In this document: positions 50,297-64,000 of the stretch, in pieces
Layout of the letters: each line of letters starts with the position of its first letter
Position numbering within the stretch: the stretch's first letter is position 1
NCBI RefSeq assembly: GCF_016526145.1
Contig: NZ_JADDUE010000010.1
Location: 62,001-126,000, forward strand
DNA length: 64,000 bases
DNA from: Saccharopolyspora galaxeae
Lineage (GTDB): Bacteria; Actinomycetota; Actinomycetes; Mycobacteriales; Pseudonocardiaceae
Direction: 5' to 3'
Notes under the pieces: model-generated
The model's input: the letters and a program-made list of their open reading frames with translations, nothing else
What the model was told of the DNA's origin: nothing
The model's database searches: none
Position numbers and translations under genes: made by a program

Positions 50297-51307
50297 CTAG
50301 GCGGTGAAGCGCAGCACCGGGAGCATCGCGTACTCGTCGGCTTCTTCCGGTGCACCGGTGCGGCATTCGGCGAGCCCGTCGTGCAGCGCCGCCTCGTCGA
50401 TGCCCGTTCCGATCAGCACCAGACTGGTCCTACGCGGTTCACCTGCGGACCACGGTGTGCGCAGGAATCGCACGTAGTTGCCGACCGCGTGCAGGACGAA
50501 CCGTTCGCGGTAGCCGGGGATTCCGAAGTGGACGGCGCCTTTGATCCGGTAGAGCCCGGCGGGCAGGTCGTCCAGAAAGGCCGCCAGCGCACGTGGATCC
50601 ATCGGCTGCTCCGAGCTGAATTCCACGCTCTGGTAGGCGGAATGCGCGTGCTCGTGGCAGTCGTCGTGCTCCACGATGTCCGAAAAGGACAGTTGTCGCG
50701 GGATGTCGTCGCGCACCGGGCGCTGCGCACGGTCGAAGAGGAAGTCCGGGTCCACCCGGCCCTGCGAGGTCTCCAGCACCGGGGTGCCGGGTGCGTACTC
50801 GGCCAAGCTCGCCCGCAGCTCGCCGAGTTCGGCGACCCGGTCGGTCTTGTTCAGCACCACCACGTCCGCGTACTGCAGGTGCTGGGCGAACTCCGGGTGC
50901 CGGGCGCGGGTCGCGTCGAACTCGGCGGCGTCGACGACCTCGACCAGCCCGCCGTAGGAAATGCCCGGTTCCGCGCTGCCCAGCAGCATCCGGATCAGCT
51001 CCCGCGGGTCGGCCAACCCGCTGCTTTCCACCACGATCACATCGACGTCGGCCTGCGCCAGCTTGGAAAGCATGGCGTCGAGTCCGCTGGAGTCGACCGC
51101 GCAGCACAGGCACCCGTTGCTCAGCGAGACCATCGAGTCGACCTGGCCCGCCACGCTCATCGCATCGATGTTGATGCTGCCGAAGTCGTTGACCACCACG
51201 CCGATCCGGGTACCGCCCGCGGTCGCGAGCAGGTGGTTGAGCAGCGTCGTCTTGCCGGATCCGAGGAAGCCCGCGACGAGCACGACCGGTGTCCTGCCGG
51301 ATGCCAC
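50297..51307 (-). CDS. CobW/COG0523-family GTPase metallochaperone
   Basis: A 336-residue G3E GTPase. The P-loop is LVAGFLGSGKTTLLNHLL at the N-terminus. The metal-binding NGCLCC (CxCC) motif lies near residue 64, the switch ESSGLADPREL near residue 95, and NKTDR near residue 154. A CobW C-terminal domain with LPAGLYRIKGAVHF follows. A His-rich patch (EHDDCHEHAHSAYQ) near residue 215 fits metal binding. Family members insert zinc, cobalt or iron into client enzymes. No Zur or B12 box is apparent upstream. GTG 51307 follows GAAGGGGG. Confidence 0.88.
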   Translation of the reverse strand: MASGRTPVVLVAGFLGSGKTTLLNHLLATAGGTRIGVVVNDFGSINIDAMSVAGQVDSMVSLSNGCLCCAVDSSGLDAMLSKLAQADVDVIVVESSGLADPRELIRMLLGSAEPGISYGGLVEVVDAAEFDATRARHPEFAQHLQYADVVVLNKTDRVAELGELRASLAEYAPGTPVLETSQGRVDPDFLFDRAQRPVRDDIPRQLSFSDIVEHDDCHEHAHSAYQSVEFSSEQPMDPRALAAFLDDLPAGLYRIKGAVHFGIPGYRERFVLHAVGNYVRFLRTPWSAGEPRRTSLVLIGTGIDEAALHDGLAECRTGAPEEADEYAMLPVLRFTA

Positions 51308-52420: not shown

Positions 52421-53644
52421 TCACTTCTGCGGCATCACGCGCTGCGGGCGGGTCCGCAGCGACTCCCCGCGCCTGCGGGCGAGGTACCAGCGCTGCCCGC
52501 TCTCCATGTAGCGCAGTCCCCGCCGCACCAGCGGAACTTGCGCCGCCCGGTGCATCTGGTACTGCCACGCGGGCTGGTAACCGTGCCGGCAGGCCATCGC
52601 GAACGCCACGTCCGCGGCGCTGCGGTCCAGGTACCGCTCGACCTGCTCGAACCACGCCATGCTGGTGCGCCCGGCGGCTTGCATGGTCCGCAGCACGTTG
52701 CGGCCCTGGTGGTCGAAATCGCGCATGCCGGTGTCCAGGTAATCGTGTTCGTGCAGCTTCTGCGCCAGCATGAGCCCGTCCATGATGGCCAGCCGGGTGC
52801 CGGACCCGATGGTGAAGTGCGTGGTGTGCGCGGCGTCGCCGAGCAGCATCACGTTCTCGTGCCGCCACGTCCGGTTGAGCACCTGGATGAACCGCTGCCA
52901 GCTCGCCGGCTTCCCGCGCGAGCTGCTGACCAGCGAGTGTCCGTCCAGCGGCCCCTCGAAGACCTTCTCCAGCAGCCGGGTCGAATCCTCGCCCTCCATC
53001 GAGTCGAACCCCAGCGCGCGCCAGGTCGGTTCGGTGGTCTCCACGATGCAGGTGCTCACGCCCGCGCTGGACGGGTAGGCGTGGAACCAGATCCAGCCCG
53101 CCGAGGTCTGCTCGAACGCGAAGGTGAAGCGGTCGAAGACCTTGTCCGTGCCGAGCCAGATGTAGGGATTGCGCCCGGTGTCGACCTGCGTCCCGAACTC
53201 CTGCTCGTGCAGCGACCGGACCTTGCTGTTCGCGCCGTCGCAGCCGATGATCAGGTCGCTGTCGGCGAACTCGTCGAGGTCGGCCACCTCCCGGCGGTAC
53301 TGGATGTCGACGCCGAGGTCGGTGGCGCGTTCGGCGAGCACGTCCAGCAGCGTCGCGCGGTTGACGCTCCACCCGTAGCCGCCCATGTATCCGATGTCCG
53401 AGCCGTTGAGCACGAGTTGCTGCTCCTGCCACAACGTGGAGGCGCCGCGGATCTGCTCGGCGCTCTCCGCGTCGTTGGAGTACAGCGCGTCCAGCAGGTT
53501 GTCCCAAAACACGACGCCCCAGCCGTAGGTGGCGCCGGGCGGGTCGCGCTCGATGATGGTGATCTCGTGTCCTGCGTCGCGCAGCTTCGCGGAAATCGCG
53601 AAGTACAACCCGGCGGGGCCGGCTCCGACACACGTGATCTTCAT
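52421..53644 (-). CDS. FAD-dependent monooxygenase of the aryl-CoA/indole hydroxylase type
   Basis: A 407-residue group A flavoenzyme. N-terminal dinucleotide motif KITCVGAGPAGLYFAISAKL, then RDPPGATYGWGVVFWDNLL. The GWGVVF block is shared with salicyloyl-CoA 5-hydroxylase, 2-aminobenzoyl-CoA monooxygenase and the violacein hydroxylase VioD. The DG motif is LIIGCDGANSKVR; the GD motif is VMLLGDAAHTTHF. Such enzymes hydroxylate aromatic or indole rings. ATG 53644 follows GGAGGTGCCC. It is the last gene of a three-gene operon (Trp/Gly peptide, ABC exporter, monooxygenase), 23 bp after the exporter. Oxidation of tryptophan side chains of the peptide is an attractive but untested idea. Confidence 0.85.
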   Translation of the reverse strand: MKITCVGAGPAGLYFAISAKLRDAGHEITIIERDPPGATYGWGVVFWDNLLDALYSNDAESAEQIRGASTLWQEQQLVLNGSDIGYMGGYGWSVNRATLLDVLAERATDLGVDIQYRREVADLDEFADSDLIIGCDGANSKVRSLHEQEFGTQVDTGRNPYIWLGTDKVFDRFTFAFEQTSAGWIWFHAYPSSAGVSTCIVETTEPTWRALGFDSMEGEDSTRLLEKVFEGPLDGHSLVSSSRGKPASWQRFIQVLNRTWRHENVMLLGDAAHTTHFTIGSGTRLAIMDGLMLAQKLHEHDYLDTGMRDFDHQGRNVLRTMQAAGRTSMAWFEQVERYLDRSAADVAFAMACRHGYQPAWQYQMHRAAQVPLVRRGLRYMESGQRWYLARRRGESLRTRPQRVMPQK

Positions 53645-53667: not shown

Positions 53668-55530
53668 TCAGTGCGCGCTCGTGCCGCCGTTGTGCTGCAC
53701 GGACGCCCCGTGCACCACCTCCGTCGACGGGTGGTGCAGGTGGTACAGGTGCGCGTAGCCGTCGTTGCGTTCCAGCAGCTCGGAATGCGTGCCGAGGCCG
53801 GTGACCCGCCCGTGGTCCAGGTACAGGATCTTGTCCGCGTCGGTGACCGTGAGCAGGTTGTGCGAGATGACGATCGTGGTGCGCCCGGCCATCAGCCGGT
53901 TCAACGGCGCGAGGATGCGTTGCGAGGCGTCCGCGTCGAGGCTCGCGGTCGGCTCGTCGAGCAGCAGGATCGGCGCGTCCCGGATCATCGCCCGCGCGAT
54001 CGCGATGCGCTGGCGCTGGCCACCGGACAGCAACCGGCCGCGCTGGCCGACCCGGGTGTCGTAGCCGTCGGGCAGTGCCTCGATGAACTCGTGCGCGTCG
54101 GCCGCGCGGGCGGCGCTCACCAAGGATTGGTGCGTGGCGCCGGGCCGCCCGGCCAGGATGTTCTCCCCGATCGTGCCGTCCAGCAGCAGCGTCTCCTGCA
54201 GCACGATGGCCATCTGCTCGCGCAGCTGCTTCGGGTCGACCTCGCGCAGGTCGGTGCCGTCCAGCCGGATGTGGCCCCGGTCCGGGTCGTAGAACCGCAG
54301 CAGCAGCTTGGTCAGCGTGGACTTGCCCGCACCGCTGGCGCCGACGATCGCGACCCGCTCGCCGGGGGCCGCGCTGACGCTGACGTCGGTGAGCACTTCG
54401 TCGGCGGTGTCCGGGTAGTGGAATCCGACCCGGTCGATGTCGAGGTTTCCGCGGACCCGCTTGAGCTCGTGCGGGCGCGCGGGCACCGGCACGTGCGGGC
54501 GCTGGTCGAACAGCTCCAGGATGCGTTCGGCGCTGGCGGCCGCGCCGTAGACCACATTGGACAGCTGGCCGAGGTTGCTGACGGGGCTGTACATCTGCTG
54601 CAGGTAGACCAGGAACGCCAGCAGCCCGCCGAGGGTGATCGCGCCGGTGGACATCTCGTAGATGCCGACCCCGACGATGGACATGATCGCCACGACTTCG
54701 AGCAGGTCCACCAGCGGCTCGAACATGCCGCCGATCCGGGCCGCGGACAGTTCCGCGGACAGGCTGGAGCGGCTCTGCCGGGCGAACCGGCCCACTTCCG
54801 CGTCCTGCCTGCCGTACGCCTGGATCAGCGGGGCGTTGCCGAGGCTTTCCTCGGCGACCGTGCTGATAGAGCCGGTGCGCCCGGCGACTTCCCGGGACGC
54901 GGACCGGATGCGGTTGGCGAAGAACCGCGCGATCCACAGGAACAGCGGGGCGACCACCAGCGCCACCACCGCCAGGTGCCAGTTCAGGTAGAACAGCACT
55001 CCGGCGAACAGCACGATCTTGATCAGCGAGGCTGCGGTCTGGGTGATCCCGGACAGCACCAGGCTCTCGATGGAGGTGATGTCGGTGGTCAGCCTGCTCA
55101 GCGTGTCGCCGATCCGGCGGCGGTCGAAGAAGTCGACCGACAGCGTGTGCAGATGGGTGAACACCCGGATCCGCAATCGGTTCAGGAAGTGCTCACCGAT
55201 CCACACCGTCAGGTAGCTCTCGCCGAAACCGACCGCGCCGACCACGATCGTCAGCGCCGCGTAGGCCGCCGCGATGATGGGGAAGAGGCTGAAGTCGCGC
55301 GGTGTGAGCACGTTGTCGATGAGGACTTTGAACATCCAAATCGCCGCTGCGTCCAGCAGCGGCGAAACCAGCACCAGCCCCAGGCTCAGCAGCATCCAGC
55401 CGCGAAAGGGCTTGGCGTCGGGCCAGAACCTCCGGAAGACCTCACGAATCCCCATCGACGGTGCGGTCTCCACCAGACCGGCTTCTTCTGTGGACGGTGG
55501 AGCGAGCAACCACCGAACGGGTCCACGCAC
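53668..55530 (-). CDS. ABC exporter (fused membrane and ATPase domains)
   Basis: A 620-residue type IV/MsbA-like half transporter. Six membrane helices occupy about residues 40-330 and the nucleotide-binding domain about residues 365-595. Walker A is IVGASGAGKSTLTKLLL, the signature is LLSGGQRQRIAIARA, Walker B is ILLLDEPTASLD and the switch His is in VISHNLLT. There is no N-terminal C39 peptidase domain, so it would not cleave a leader itself. GTG 55530 follows GGAGGTAGCAC. It starts 83 bp after the Trp/Gly peptide gene on the same strand, which suggests export of that peptide or of its product. Confidence 0.92.
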   Translation of the reverse strand: MRGPVRWLLAPPSTEEAGLVETAPSMGIREVFRRFWPDAKPFRGWMLLSLGLVLVSPLLDAAAIWMFKVLIDNVLTPRDFSLFPIIAAAYAALTIVVGAVGFGESYLTVWIGEHFLNRLRIRVFTHLHTLSVDFFDRRRIGDTLSRLTTDITSIESLVLSGITQTAASLIKIVLFAGVLFYLNWHLAVVALVVAPLFLWIARFFANRIRSASREVAGRTGSISTVAEESLGNAPLIQAYGRQDAEVGRFARQSRSSLSAELSAARIGGMFEPLVDLLEVVAIMSIVGVGIYEMSTGAITLGGLLAFLVYLQQMYSPVSNLGQLSNVVYGAAASAERILELFDQRPHVPVPARPHELKRVRGNLDIDRVGFHYPDTADEVLTDVSVSAAPGERVAIVGASGAGKSTLTKLLLRFYDPDRGHIRLDGTDLREVDPKQLREQMAIVLQETLLLDGTIGENILAGRPGATHQSLVSAARAADAHEFIEALPDGYDTRVGQRGRLLSGGQRQRIAIARAMIRDAPILLLDEPTASLDADASQRILAPLNRLMAGRTTIVISHNLLTVTDADKILYLDHGRVTGLGTHSELLERNDGYAHLYHLHHPSTEVVHGASVQHNGGTSAH

Positions 55531-55613
55531 GTGCTACCTCCAGCGGACGGGGGATGGCGCCCGCGCCGAACGACGCGGGCGCCACCCGGAAATGACTTGG
55601 GTTGAGAGGCCGG

Positions 55614-55766
55614 CTACTTCCAGCCCCAGCCGCCCCAGCCGTGGCCGCCCCAGCCCCAGCCGTGGCCCCAGCCGTTGCCCCAGCCCCAGCCGTTGCCCCA
55701 GCCCCAGCCGTTGCCGTGCCGGCGGCGGTTGTTGATGTAGACGAATACGCTCTTCACATTGCTCAT
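55614..55766 (-). CDS. 50-residue Trp/Gly-repeat peptide, candidate RiPP precursor
   Basis: A short gene with a proper AAAGGTG ribosome site 7-10 bp before ATG 55766. The N-terminal 19 residues look like a leader (MSNVKSVFVYINNRRRHGN, hydrophobic then basic). The rest is built from GNGWGW, GHGWGW and GGWGW units: 10 Trp and 17 Gly in residues 18-50, ending WGWK. There are no Cys, Ser or Thr in the repeat part. An ABC exporter and a flavin monooxygenase follow in the same direction. I recognise no family. A ribosomally made, oxidised peptide is the leading idea; a small structural or wall-associated glycine-rich protein is the alternative. A partial hairpin (AAAGA-ACG-TCTTT, 55803-55815) lies in its upstream region. 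Confidence 0.75.
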   Translation of the reverse strand: MSNVKSVFVYINNRRRHGNGWGWGNGWGWGNGWGHGWGWGGHGWGGWGWK

Positions 55767-56209
55767 CGCGATGCACCTTTCTGCATTGCTGATTTTCCGG
55801 AGAAAGAACGTCTTTCCGCGGAACCCGGTGCGGTGTCGGATCCCCGCGGCACCGGAAACGTGCAACGCCCCCAGTGACGGGCTGACCCCGCTTTTCCCCG
55901 TGGTCGCGAGGAAGTGCTCCGCACCGGCCGAGGCCCGCCTCCGCGCTCCCGGGCCGGTCCCGGTGGCTTGGAGAACCGTCCCGAGCGCGCCCCCGCGTGA
56001 CTCGGCCCCGCGTTCCTCCGGTGTTCTGTTCCGGGCCGGGTGCCCCCGTGTGGGCTGGAGCGACCCGACCCACAACGAGTAGACCGCACCGCGACGGGCG
56101 TGCCCAGAGGACTATCGGCCCTGATTCGCCGTGATCGCGGGGAAAATCTCCGGTGCACGCGCAGCGTGGTTATGCTCGGCGGCGACGAGCCGATCAGACG
56201 GGAGCGGTG
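55767..56209. other. Divergent control region, Trp/Gly peptide and PLP decarboxylase
   Basis: About 440 bases without a convincing gene on either strand. The left 70 bases are AT-richer and contain the AAAGA-ACG-TCTTT hairpin (55803-55815), placed to act on the peptide gene. Near the right end TTATGCT (about 56169) could be a -10 for the decarboxylase gene. The rest is C-rich and shows no clear sites. Confidence 0.5.
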
Positions 56210-57565
56210 ATGGATCTGCGGCGGTGGACGGCACGCGCCTGGGACGAGGTGGAGCGCTGGCAGGCCGGGTTCGGCGGATTCGGCGAACATCCGTCCACTT
56301 CGGTCGCGGACGCGGAGTTCGCGGCCGCTTTCGGGGATCTGGTCGAACGGTTGCGCGAGAGCTACCCGTTCCACCACCCGCGGTATCAGGGACAGATGTT
56401 GAAGCCGCCGCACCCGGCGGCGATGGTCGGCTATCTCGCCGCGATGCGGATCAATCCGAACAATCACGCGCTGGACGGAGGCCCGGCGACGTCACGGATG
56501 GAGCAGGAGGCGACCGGCCTGCTCGGAGCGATGTTCGGAATGCCGAATGCGTTGGGCCACCTGACATCCAGCGGAACGATCGCCAATCTGGAGGCGTTGT
56601 TCGTGGCGCGGGAGACGCGTCCCGGAAGAGCCGTGGCGTTCAGCTCCGAGGCGCACTACACGCATTCCCGGATGTGCCGGCTGCTCGGGGTGCCTGCCGT
56701 GCAGGTTCCGGTGGATGCGGCCGGAAGGCTCGAGGTGCCCGCGCTGGACGCCCTCATGTCCGAACAGGACATCGGTACGGTCGTGGTCACCGCCGGGTCG
56801 ACGGCGCTCGGCGCGGTCGATCCGATCGACGAAGTCCTTGCTCTGCGCGAAAAACACGAATTCCGGGTGCACGTGGACGCGGCCTATGGTGGGTTCTTCG
56901 CGCTGATCGCCGACGACTCCTCGGCAGGGGTCTCAGCCGCCCCGTTCCGCGCGATCGCCGACTGCGATTCGGTCGTGGTGGACCCGCACAAGCACGGCCT
57001 GCAACCGTACGGCTGCGGCGCGGTCCTGTTCGCCGACCCCGAGGTGGCCCGGTTCTACCGGCACGATTCGCCCTACACCTACTTCACCACCGACGAGCCG
57101 CACTTGGGCGAAATATCCTTGGAGTGCTCCAAATCCGGCGCCGCAGCCGCCGCGCTGTGGCTGACCTTCCAGGTGCTGCCGCCCACTCCGGACGGACTCG
57201 GCCAGGTGCTGCGCGCGAGCAGGCGCGCAGCGTTGCGCTGGTCCGAACTGCTCGCGGACTCCGCGGTGCTGTCGGCCTACCAACAACCCGAGCTCGACAT
57301 CGTCGGCCTGCTGCCGAACGCGGCAACGATGTCCGAAGTGGACAAGTTGGCGGAGCGGGCCATGACGGGCGGAATGCAGGCGCCTCCGCAGGAACAGCTG
57401 CATCTCGCGGTCCTGGAGGTCACCGCCGAGGATTGCACCGCCCGCGGCCACACCGTGCATCCCGACGTGCCGCGCGCGCGAATCCTGCGCAGCGTGCTGA
57501 TGAAACCCGAGCACGAGGACTGGGTCGAGCACAACCACAGCGTCCTCGAACGGCTGCTTTCCTGA
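56210..57565 (+). CDS. PLP-dependent group II decarboxylase / aminotransferase-fold enzyme
   Basis: A 451-residue fold-type I PLP enzyme resembling tyrosine/DOPA/glutamate-type decarboxylases. The N-terminal YPFHHPRYQGQMLKPPHPAAMVGYLAAM and HLTSSGTIANLEAL (PLP phosphate site), VHVDAAYGGFF (Asp contacting the pyridine nitrogen) and the Schiff-base Lys in VVVDPHKHGLQPYGCGAVL are all present. It probably decarboxylates an amino acid to an amine. ATG 56210 follows GGGAGCGG. It is divergent from the Trp/Gly peptide and convergent with the ATP-grasp gene (18 bp between stops). It could supply an amine to the ligase. Confidence 0.87.
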   Translation: MDLRRWTARAWDEVERWQAGFGGFGEHPSTSVADAEFAAAFGDLVERLRESYPFHHPRYQGQMLKPPHPAAMVGYLAAMRINPNNHALDGGPATSRMEQEATGLLGAMFGMPNALGHLTSSGTIANLEALFVARETRPGRAVAFSSEAHYTHSRMCRLLGVPAVQVPVDAAGRLEVPALDALMSEQDIGTVVVTAGSTALGAVDPIDEVLALREKHEFRVHVDAAYGGFFALIADDSSAGVSAAPFRAIADCDSVVVDPHKHGLQPYGCGAVLFADPEVARFYRHDSPYTYFTTDEPHLGEISLECSKSGAAAAALWLTFQVLPPTPDGLGQVLRASRRAALRWSELLADSAVLSAYQQPELDIVGLLPNAATMSEVDKLAERAMTGGMQAPPQEQLHLAVLEVTAEDCTARGHTVHPDVPRARILRSVLMKPEHEDWVEHNHSVLERLLS

Positions 57566-61993: not shown

Positions 61994-62683
61994 CTAGCGG
62001 TCGTCGCCTGCGGGCTCTTCCCATCGGCGCACGGCGCTGGTCAGGGCGTCCGTCCACTGCCGGAGGATGCGCTGCCCTGCACCGGCGGTGGCGGTGGTGG
62101 GGTCGCCGAGCACGCCGTTCGCGCTGACGGCCCGGACTCCGCCTTCGCGCAGTCGTGGCATCAGGTCGGGTAGGGCGGTCGTGTTGCCGCGGGAAGCCTG
62201 TCCGAAGTGGACGTGTTGGGGGTGCAGCGCGAGCATCACCGACGTTTCGGCGTGCCCGGCGTGGCTGTCGTCCGCGCGGCCGGTCGGCGACCAGGTCAGG
62301 ACACTGCGTCCCTCGCAGTGCAGGAGTTCTTCTGCCGAGCGCAGTGCGGGCAGGTTGCCGCCGTGGCCGTTGACCACGACCACCCCTGCGAAATGGTCGG
62401 CCGATCGCACGAGTTCGACCAGCAGCAGGCGGAGGGCGTCGTGTCCGATGGAGAGCGTGCCGGGGAAGGCTGCGTGCTCGCCGCTGGCGCCGTAGGGGAT
62501 CGCGGGACCGATCACGAGGTTGTCGTGCTCCGCCGCCAGCCGGTTGCAGAGTTCCGTCGCGATCGCGGTGTCGGTCCAGAGTGGAAGGTGCGGACCGTGT
62601 TGTTCGGTGGCACCCAGCGGAATCGCCAGCAGGGTTCGGTCGGTGAGTTCGGGCCAGCGGTGGCCCGCGAGTTCGCGGCTCAC
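61994..62683 (-). CDS. mftE: Mycofactocin precursor peptidase (creatininase family)
   Basis: A 229-residue creatininase-family metalloprotein. Signatures: LLAIPLGATEQHGPHLPLWTDTA near residue 18, VVVNGHGGNLPALRSAEE near residue 100, and DDSHAGHAETSVML. In the mycofactocin pathway MftE cleaves the MftC-modified MftA peptide, freeing the C-terminal Val-Tyr-derived core that becomes the redox cofactor. GTG 62683 overlaps the mftF stop (GTGA), so the two genes are coupled. A plain creatininase is the alternative, but the MftF neighbour settles it. Confidence 0.93.
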   Translation of the reverse strand: MSRELAGHRWPELTDRTLLAIPLGATEQHGPHLPLWTDTAIATELCNRLAAEHDNLVIGPAIPYGASGEHAAFPGTLSIGHDALRLLLVELVRSADHFAGVVVVNGHGGNLPALRSAEELLHCEGRSVLTWSPTGRADDSHAGHAETSVMLALHPQHVHFGQASRGNTTALPDLMPRLREGGVRAVSANGVLGDPTTATAGAGQRILRQWTDALTSAVRRWEEPAGDDR

Positions 62684-64000
62684 CGCAGCGAGCCTTCGGT
62701 GAACTGCGGCAGCAGCGGAGCGATCGTGCGTTCCCGCGCGCAGCCGACCCAAACTCCTGCGGAGTAAGCCAGGTCGTCGAGCACTCGCAGGGCGAACCAC
62801 GAGAATCCGCCGTGCTCCGCGCGGCACGCCTCCACCAAGCACGGCAGGAACGCCGCGAGCAGCACTGTTCGGGCCTTGCCGCTGCACAGCGCAGCGGGCA
62901 GCAACAACGGCCACCACGCGCGTCGCAGGGCCTCGGCGAGCAGCCTTCCCGCACCGAGGTGGCCGAAAGCGGCCAGCCGCAGGGATTCCGCGTCGGGCAC
63001 GCCGCGGGCGCGGAGCTTGCGCGGCAGCAGTGCGGCGCTGACCGCTGCGACCCCGAGACCGATCCGCGGTCGTCCGGAAGCGATCAGCGCCCACGACGCC
63101 GCGCTCCACGCGGACATCCTGGCGCAGCTGAGTTTCCCGTGGTGGTGGCGGGACAGCGGTGCGGCCGAGGTGCCGTACTGGTAGCGCTGCCGCAACCAGG
63201 ACCGCCAGCCGGGTCTCGTCCGATGCCGAACGACGGAACCGGGCTCGTAGCGCACGGCACCACCGGATTCCAGCAGCCGCCACACCAGGTCGACGTCCTC
63301 GCCGTACCGCAGCGACTCGCGAAAGCCGCCGAGGCCGGCCAGTGCGCTGCGGCGGACCACGAGTGCTGCGCTGGGCACGTAGCTGACCCTGCTCATCGGC
63401 CGGACCAGGGCACGGCGTACGCCCATGTCCAAACTGGACCTGTCCGATTCGTACCGGCCGAGCGGAGAATCCTCCGCCACGCTCGTGATCCGCGGGGCGA
63501 CCGCCAGCACGGCGGGATCGGTGAACTCGCGCAGGACGGGGTCGAGCCACCCGGCGACGGGTTCTGCGTCGGCGTCGACGAACGCGACGAGTTCGGTTTC
63601 CGCGCGTCGCCAGCCGGTGTTGCGAGCGGCGGCGGGGCCGCGCGGGTGTTCGTGGCGAACGGTGGAATCGGGAACCGGCGAGGTGGATCCGTCGTCGACC
63701 ACGATCCGGTTCGGAATGTCCGTTGCGGCTCGGAGTGCGAGGCGCAGCCCGGCTCGATCATCTTTGACCGGGACGACGAGCGTGATGTCGTCCTCGGTCC
63801 AGATCTTGCGGGCGGGCTCCGGGTGCACCAGCCCGGATTCGAGCAACCGTCGCGCCAGCTCGCTCGCCGCGCCGGGCTCGACCGGCTCGCCCGAGAGCCA
63901 GCGGTTCACCAGCCGGGACCCGGCCGCGCCGAGCCGGAGCAGCCGCAGCGGAGAACCGCCCAGCAGCACGCGTCCGTCGCCGAGGCGCCGCAACGACGGG
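62680..64000 (-). CDS. mftF: Mycofactocin glycosyltransferase (5' end outside window)
   Basis: The C-terminal 440 or so residues of MftF, a GT2-type transferase that adds glucose units to mycofactocin. The frame stays open to the right edge, and the in-window sequence (LRRLGDGRVLLGGSPLRLLRL) matches the region about 20-30 residues after the usual start, so the true start lies upstream. The GT-A domain shows LVVPVKDDRAGLRLAL, RIVVDDGSTSP, LVAFVDADAEP (DXD-like) and GGFRESLRYGEDVDLVWRLLESG. A hydrophobic C-terminal region follows. Gene order here (mftF before mftE) is inverted relative to the mycobacterial mftE-mftF order. Confidence 0.93.
   Translation of the reverse strand, partial: PSLRRLGDGRVLLGGSPLRLLRLGAAGSRLVNRWLSGEPVEPGAASELARRLLESGLVHPEPARKIWTEDDITLVVPVKDDRAGLRLALRAATDIPNRIVVDDGSTSPVPDSTVRHEHPRGPAAARNTGWRRAETELVAFVDADAEPVAGWLDPVLREFTDPAVLAVAPRITSVAEDSPLGRYESDRSSLDMGVRRALVRPMSRVSYVPSAALVVRRSALAGLGGFRESLRYGEDVDLVWRLLESGGAVRYEPGSVVRHRTRPGWRSWLRQRYQYGTSAAPLSRHHHGKLSCARMSAWSAASWALIASGRPRIGLGVAAVSAALLPRKLRARGVPDAESLRLAAFGHLGAGRLLAEALRRAWWPLLLPAALCSGKARTVLLAAFLPCLVEACRAEHGGFSWFALRVLDDLAYSAGVWVGCARERTIAPLLPQFTEGSLR

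Follow-up and report, generated by a model that had tools for sequence, protein, structure and literature searches.

The window, by which we mean the whole stretch of 64,000 nucleotides analysed here, contains a short gene for a Trp/Gly-repeat peptide, followed on the same strand by genes for an ABC exporter and a flavin monooxygenase. The features of this locus were assigned as follows.

52421-53644, minus strand: flavin monooxygenase, 407 aa, of the family of VioD and the N-terminal half of salicylyl-CoA 5-hydroxylase (Pfam PF01494, NCBIfam scores, match to VioD in the PDB at E = 2.9e-41)
53668-55530, minus strand: ABC exporter, a single chain carrying both the membrane and the ATPase domain (Pfam PF00664 and PF00005; tree)
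55552-55587, minus strand: hairpin 3' of the peptide gene, with arms at 55572-55587 and 55552-55567, terminator-like, no T-run (fold and alignment)
55614-55766, minus strand: Trp/Gly-repeat peptide gene, 50 aa (translation and orthologues)
55776-55781, minus strand: putative ribosome-binding site GAAAGG, 9 nt 5' of the ATG (read from the sequence; kept in 6/6 genomes of the genus)
56210-57565, plus strand: divergent PLP-dependent decarboxylase, a candidate accessory gene (Pfam PF00282; scanned from 56153, start at 56210 chosen)

Translation of the minus strand from 55766 to 55614 gave the peptide MSNVKSVFVYINNRRRHGNGWGWGNGWGWGNGWGHGWGWGGHGWGGWGWK, ended by a stop codon. Its 50 residues include 17 Gly, 10 Trp and 3 His, and Cys is absent. 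The repeat ORF of the original prediction therefore exists with the length and composition given there, and its strand, which had been left unstated, is minus. The exporter gene starts 83 nt past the peptide stop codon and the monooxygenase gene 23 nt past that of the exporter, and both spacings are as predicted. It had also been supposed that no known peptide family has such a pattern. Indeed, neither Pfam nor NCBIfam gave a match to the peptide at E ≤ 0.001, no known RiPP class matched it among the families and literature searched, and the literature search, outside which most subscription papers lay, returned no description of such a peptide family.

The peptide was found in all six genomes of the window's genus (g1) that were examined. 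In each of them the trio of peptide, exporter and monooxygenase is kept on one strand, with 83-99% identity to the window's exporter and 77-99% to its monooxygenase. The number of repeats varies within the genus; one peptide (genome G002) has 30 aa and 3 Trp, and the others have 49-52 aa. A start of the form M-x-[IV]-[KST]-x-[VIT]-F is common to most peptides of g1 and of the groups g26, g13 and g3, and is a candidate for the predicted leader-like N-terminus; however, it is missing in g5 (taken as Pseudonocardia, and the family as Pseudonocardiaceae) and g43, so that a leader common to all the peptides is doubtful. Upstream of the peptide genes, GGTGCAT stands directly 5' of the start in 6/6 g1 genomes, and 11/13 g26 genomes have GACGTGCATCGA shortly 5' of the start codon; both are possible regulatory sites. 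Eleven close pairs were compared (shared genomes, small counts and a crude method). The ratio pN/pS was below 1 in all ten in which pS exceeded 0; the remaining pair, G404/G415, showed three non-synonymous and zero synonymous differences, which counts against the reading that we favour below. A spurious ORF within a GC-rich repeat would fit the low complexity of the peptide and the further open frames at the same place, but the start signal, the position, the repeats and the in-frame N-terminus are conserved in several genera. Because 6/6 genomes of the genus have this frame, each time with a similar N-terminus, and Trp/Gly ORFs lie 5' of the orthologous exporter in other genera, the ORF is not due to chance. 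We dropped the spurious reading on account of this in-frame conservation and consider it barely credible.

Additional copies of the peptide gene were also detected. The window's own genome (G000) carries a second Trp/Gly/His copy at C33:226797-226958, beginning with MSNVKNVFVSIGNRHHG, which has a twin in the same-species genome G100, and G004 likewise carries an additional copy. No window-type exporter or oxygenase was found within the 20 kb read around these three copies, and the missing oxygenase is a point against our favoured reading. All of the g26 Trp/Gly peptides (13/13) and both of those from g13 (2/2) end in Cys or Cys-Trp, and several Trp/Gly peptides are rich in His and Asp as well. 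HGWGW repeats resemble Cu-binding repeats; Cu binding by the repeats was nevertheless disfavoured, since His is not conserved. When a peptide profile was searched against the class, 14/394 genomes matched at E ≤ 0.01, the own genome with E = 1e-18 and the other 13 weakly (best 3.6e-4). Ten of these 13 matches fall in open frames of more than 100 aa; at L036, L039 and L043, where the frame is shorter, there is no comparable ORF. The search against the family matched 11/390 genomes at E ≤ 0.05; two of its matches (G281:C301 and G025) were dropped for want of a comparable ORF, as was a single contig-search match (L007) with no Trp/Gly-rich frame.

Subsequently, the association of the peptide with its neighbours was examined in a set of exporter genes that were not chosen by peptide. 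An exporter search gave hits in 63/386 family genomes at E ≤ 1e-150, with 105 places listed. Of these, 78 were taken, and together with nine non-window places from 296 class genomes they made up 87 exporter genes; the 27 places left out all had at most 62% identity, and one of them (G346:C11) has a monooxygenase adjoining by coordinates. A monooxygenase was counted as present at more than 45% identity and within 3 kb of the exporter, and a Trp/Gly ORF when a frame that ends -20 to 320 nt 5' of the exporter had at least four WG/GW dipeptides among its final 70 residues. By this dipeptide rule, a Trp/Gly ORF preceded 36 of the 37 exporters with a monooxygenase and none of the 50 without one (0/50). 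The original prediction had named loss of the peptide, in relatives that keep the exporter and the oxygenase, as the observation that would speak against it. Such loss was not seen, as the 37th locus (L069) is cut by a contig end that leaves only 151 nt 5' of the exporter. In two of the 36 (L076 and L122) the contig begins inside the ORF and only the ORF end is visible. When a Shine-Dalgarno-core rule was used instead, the counts were 26/37 and 3/50; this rule missed eight Trp/Gly ORFs and the three truncated by contig ends, and it let in the ORFs of L123, L099 and L128, which have 3-5 Trp and no Gly-Trp repeats. Thus, as is expected of RiPPs, a conserved putative precursor gene stands beside the same candidate modifying enzyme at 36 of the 37 oxygenase-bearing exporter loci.

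The oxygenase gene is on the same strand in g1 and convergent in g26 and g13, and this difference in orientation indicates that the linkage survived rearrangement. Furthermore, G281 and G277 each have a Trp/Gly peptide gene directly 5' of the monooxygenase gene, with an HlyD-type gene just upstream, an MFS gene about 3 kb off and no ABC gene in the 15 kb read. In G021 the two are divergent neighbours; a PLP decarboxylase is nearby and no ABC gene was found. The pairing of peptide and monooxygenase accordingly persists at these loci without the ABC gene.

In a tree of the 87 exporters built by a quick method, the monooxygenase label needs two changes, compared with about 28 in shuffles. The history is most simply read as one gain of the oxygenase followed by one loss, the latter in a group of seven rows with Tyr-rich ORFs, which branches from within the Trp/Gly rows of its own genus. 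This group is a natural experiment, but it is one event, and near relatives cluster anyway. The independent events are few, namely two label changes and two exporter-less arrangements, and this counts against the reading that we favour below. The monooxygenase tree (60 rows) unites the Trp-linked enzymes in a single 48-row clade; 36 of its rows are linked, three are cut by contig ends and nine are unlinked. These nine, which likewise count against our reading, come from g26 without exception, and eight belong to a single second-copy group; no Trp/Gly ORF was found near them (14-15 kb read for five, 1.5 kb flanks only for four). Outside the clade, 12 rows from nine loci showed no credible Trp/Gly ORF, again to the disadvantage of our reading; one locus (L187) was dropped as Trp-linked because its frame is unrelated. 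Relatives of the monooxygenase are also common, occurring in 187/297 family genomes at E ≤ 1e-60, which is a further point against our reading. Separately, tandem pairs of distant (41-51%) flavin monooxygenases were observed in g5 and g3 (L183, L184 and L185), with no Trp/Gly ORF near.

Among the 50 exporters without a monooxygenase, upstream ORFs of other types were seen: Tyr-rich, Phe/Ser/Arg/Cys, His/Arg, Asp/Arg (with a PWDW start), Pro-rich and, in class genomes, basic ones. Nine of the 50 have no ORF with a recognised start by the first rule. We compared the lowest windowed residue entropy of ATG ORFs of 25-110 aa with a Shine-Dalgarno core against that upstream of 564 other genes of at least 200 aa at 71 loci. 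An entropy below 2.6 bits was found upstream of 31/50 exporters without the monooxygenase, 26/37 with it and 10/564 controls; the loci are related, so that no probability attaches to this comparison, and the control gene starts are approximate. Hence the predicted series of peptide, exporter and oxygenase is conserved and linked, but several kinds of short low-complexity ORF occur 5' of this exporter clade, and the peptide represents one of them. The Tyr-rich ORFs of the survey were at seven g3 loci, all of one genus and without oxygenase. Tyr/Gly-rich ORFs with an MR[VI]S[DE][VI]F start were seen 5' of the exporter, again without oxygenase, at L071-L074, L090, L091, L119 and L120; at L091 the ORF and exporter lie between formate dehydrogenase-like and MoeA-like genes (by eye). 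Five g26 genomes (L102-L106) have a second exporter paralogue, 5' of which a Phe/Ser/Arg/Cys-rich ORF of 39-41 aa, beginning with MAVFTGLAPAWGG, is conserved. In other actinobacteria (L168, L169, L171, L173, L175, L195 and L196), exporters of this clade are preceded by short basic low-complexity ORFs, and Arg-rich short ORFs also stand upstream of the Streptomyces nigrescens and Nonomuraea gerenzanensis exporters.

The monooxygenase has the Pfam domain FAD_binding_3. Its best NCBIfam profile is salicylyl-CoA 5-hydroxylase (NF006101; 378.3 bits, cut-off 1078), which matches enzyme residues 1-354 and is covered only at positions 1-361 of a 768-position bifunctional model; the likeness is thus to its N-terminal half. 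The VioD profile NF053547 came second (195.9 bits, cut-off 620), and the QhpG profile NF049967 was far behind (26.3 bits, cut-off 240). As none of the three equivalog cut-offs was reached, the enzyme is not a member of the salicylyl-CoA 5-hydroxylase, VioD or QhpG families. Among solved structures, two VioD sequences come closest (E = 2.9e-41 and 2e-40, aligned over residues 1-359), which is in line with the expectation of a flavin enzyme of the indole-hydroxylase kind. VioD, a hydroxylase of the violacein pathway, performs indole chemistry; unlike VioD, the window enzyme has a peptide gene beside it. The named relatives of the enzyme act on CoA thioesters, and this again counts against our reading.

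Among the loci read, the PLP decarboxylase is near the cassette in g1, g13 and g18 only, and not near the g26, g3 and g5 cassettes. Catechol genes adjoin the cassette in the window's species; among 32 scanned loci they were found only at the two of this species, and a link to the cassette was dropped because of this confinement. No peptidase domain was among the Pfam matches of the exporter, and no constant protease or second tailoring enzyme was found at the cassette loci, which also weakens our reading. Mycofactocin genes lie at 61994-63993 of the window, 6-8 kb from the peptide gene (MftF 446 bits, cut-off 280; MftE 285 bits, cut-off 172); MftF is near the cassette in 6/6 genomes of the genus and had no match near the cassettes that were read in g26, g13 and g5. 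A gene for a CobW-family GTPase (50297-51307 of the window; also L028, L078, L082, L083, L086 and L087) is a few kb from the cassette in the window's species and in six g26 genomes; this may be a link to metal, or chance.

Our interpretation starts from what the sequences show, namely an ORF that is conserved and linked to both genes, an oxygenase that goes together with Trp/Gly repeats in the exporter clade, and a covarying hairpin. We consider it somewhat more probable than not that the small gene encodes a RiPP-like precursor peptide acting in trans, whose Trp residues would be oxygenated by the VioD-like enzyme. The indole rings would be hydroxylated, and perhaps converted further to quinone or cross-linked forms; the product would be carried out of the cell by the neighbouring ABC exporter. 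The hairpin probably ends or stabilises most transcripts, which would give much peptide and little exporter. We infer that the peptide is expressed and translated, and that its biological role may be that of an antimicrobial, a redox-active compound, a pigment or a matrix component.

The hairpin also bears on another reading, in which the ORF is a cis-acting leader and ribosome pausing controls a terminator hairpin 5' of the exporter. ORFs rich in Trp, His, Tyr, Phe or Pro resemble attenuator leaders. Here, a short ORF, a conserved covarying hairpin and an ABC exporter follow one another in that order: a stem of 12-16 bp was found past the peptide stop in 20/21 loci of g1, g13 and g26 (strict rule), and an alignment of 16 sequences gave 15 pairs, six of them changed on both sides. 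BmrB of B. subtilis offers a precedent, with a stem-loop and a short ORF before the ABC transporter genes of BmrC/BmrD; the BmrB terminator is described there as lying within its coding region (PMC4191407), whereas the hairpin here is 3' of the ORF. It is also 3' of the peptide in the G281 and G277 peptide-monooxygenase pairs, in G021 and in the extra copies of G000, G100 and G004. An attenuator would have a regulated gene 3' of every copy. However, all ORFs called over the 5 kb behind the C33 copy of G000 are on the opposite strand, and the second copy of G004 faces a convergent gene (simple ORF caller). The hairpin therefore goes with the peptide gene even where no operon follows, which argues against a cis-regulatory leader. 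In addition, the ORF showed no consistent excess of pairing with the 5' arm of the hairpin in 20 loci (z from -3.0 to +2.6; single-stem test), Gly is conserved as strictly as Trp, and the oxygenase accompanies the Trp/Gly type only. The hairpin and pairing results lower the probability of a BmrB-like role, which we regard as quite unlikely.

Export of an unmodified peptide (metal-binding, adhesive or antimicrobial), with the oxygenase having another substrate or a minor role, would account for the low-complexity ORFs 5' of exporters without oxygenase (31/50 compared with 10/564 controls) and for the Trp/Gly members rich in His and Asp. It fits less well with the confinement of the oxygenase to Trp/Gly loci (36/37 against 0/50) and with the peptide-oxygenase pairs that exist without an ABC gene, and we judge it unlikely, though with some weight. 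Alternatively, the oxygenase, the exporter and the PLP decarboxylase may form a small-molecule pathway of aryl-CoA or tryptamine type to which the peptide is incidental. The top NCBIfam score of 378 bits, the catechol genes next door in the window species and the decarboxylase linked in g1, g13 and g18 are consistent with this. Yet the family cut-offs were not reached, the catechol genes and the decarboxylase are restricted as described above, and the most constant neighbour is the peptide; we consider this pathway improbable.

For the favoured reading of a modified and exported Trp peptide, the closest mechanistic precedent is QhpC/QhpF/QhpG, which acts in cysteine tryptophylquinone maturation of quinohemoprotein amine dehydrogenase. 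The flavoprotein QhpG dihydroxylates peptidyl Trp, and the operon includes the efflux ABC transporter QhpF (PMC7876137). A small ribosomal peptide, an FAD monooxygenase that would act on peptidyl Trp and an efflux ABC transporter are common to both systems. The window system is no member of the Qhp system, given the distance of its enzyme from QhpG and its repetitive Trp/Gly core; the scan of the window's proteins near the cassette gave no QhpD-like radical SAM protein and no QhpE-like protease. Furthermore, as the window peptide is without Cys, cysteine tryptophylquinone is impossible in it. With RiPPs in general the locus shares a short precursor, a candidate tailoring enzyme and an exporter, whereas no leader protease was seen. 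We regard it as a putative, unproven variant of the RiPP kind.

A broader proposal is that an actinobacterial ABC-exporter clade has short low-complexity peptides as its dedicated cargo, the cores of which are interchangeable (Trp/Gly, Tyr/Gly, Phe/Ser/Arg/Cys, His/Arg, Asp/Arg and Pro), and that the VioD-like oxygenase of the Trp/Gly branch makes poly-hydroxylated or quinone Trp. The secreted peptides would then be redox-active, pigment-like or self-crosslinking and would represent a new RiPP class in a new peptide-export system; we offer this tentatively, as a possibility rather than an expectation. If the favoured reading is true, a multi-genus peptide family would combine a built-in Gly-Trp substrate signature with an oxygenase that stands alone. 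It would help in the study and engineering of peptidyl-Trp hydroxylation, a reaction with QhpG as its flavoprotein precedent. The exporters would form a clade whose upstream short ORFs may define the cargo, and Trp cores with the oxygenase against Tyr cores without it would provide a natural comparison that makes the substrate of the enzyme directly testable.
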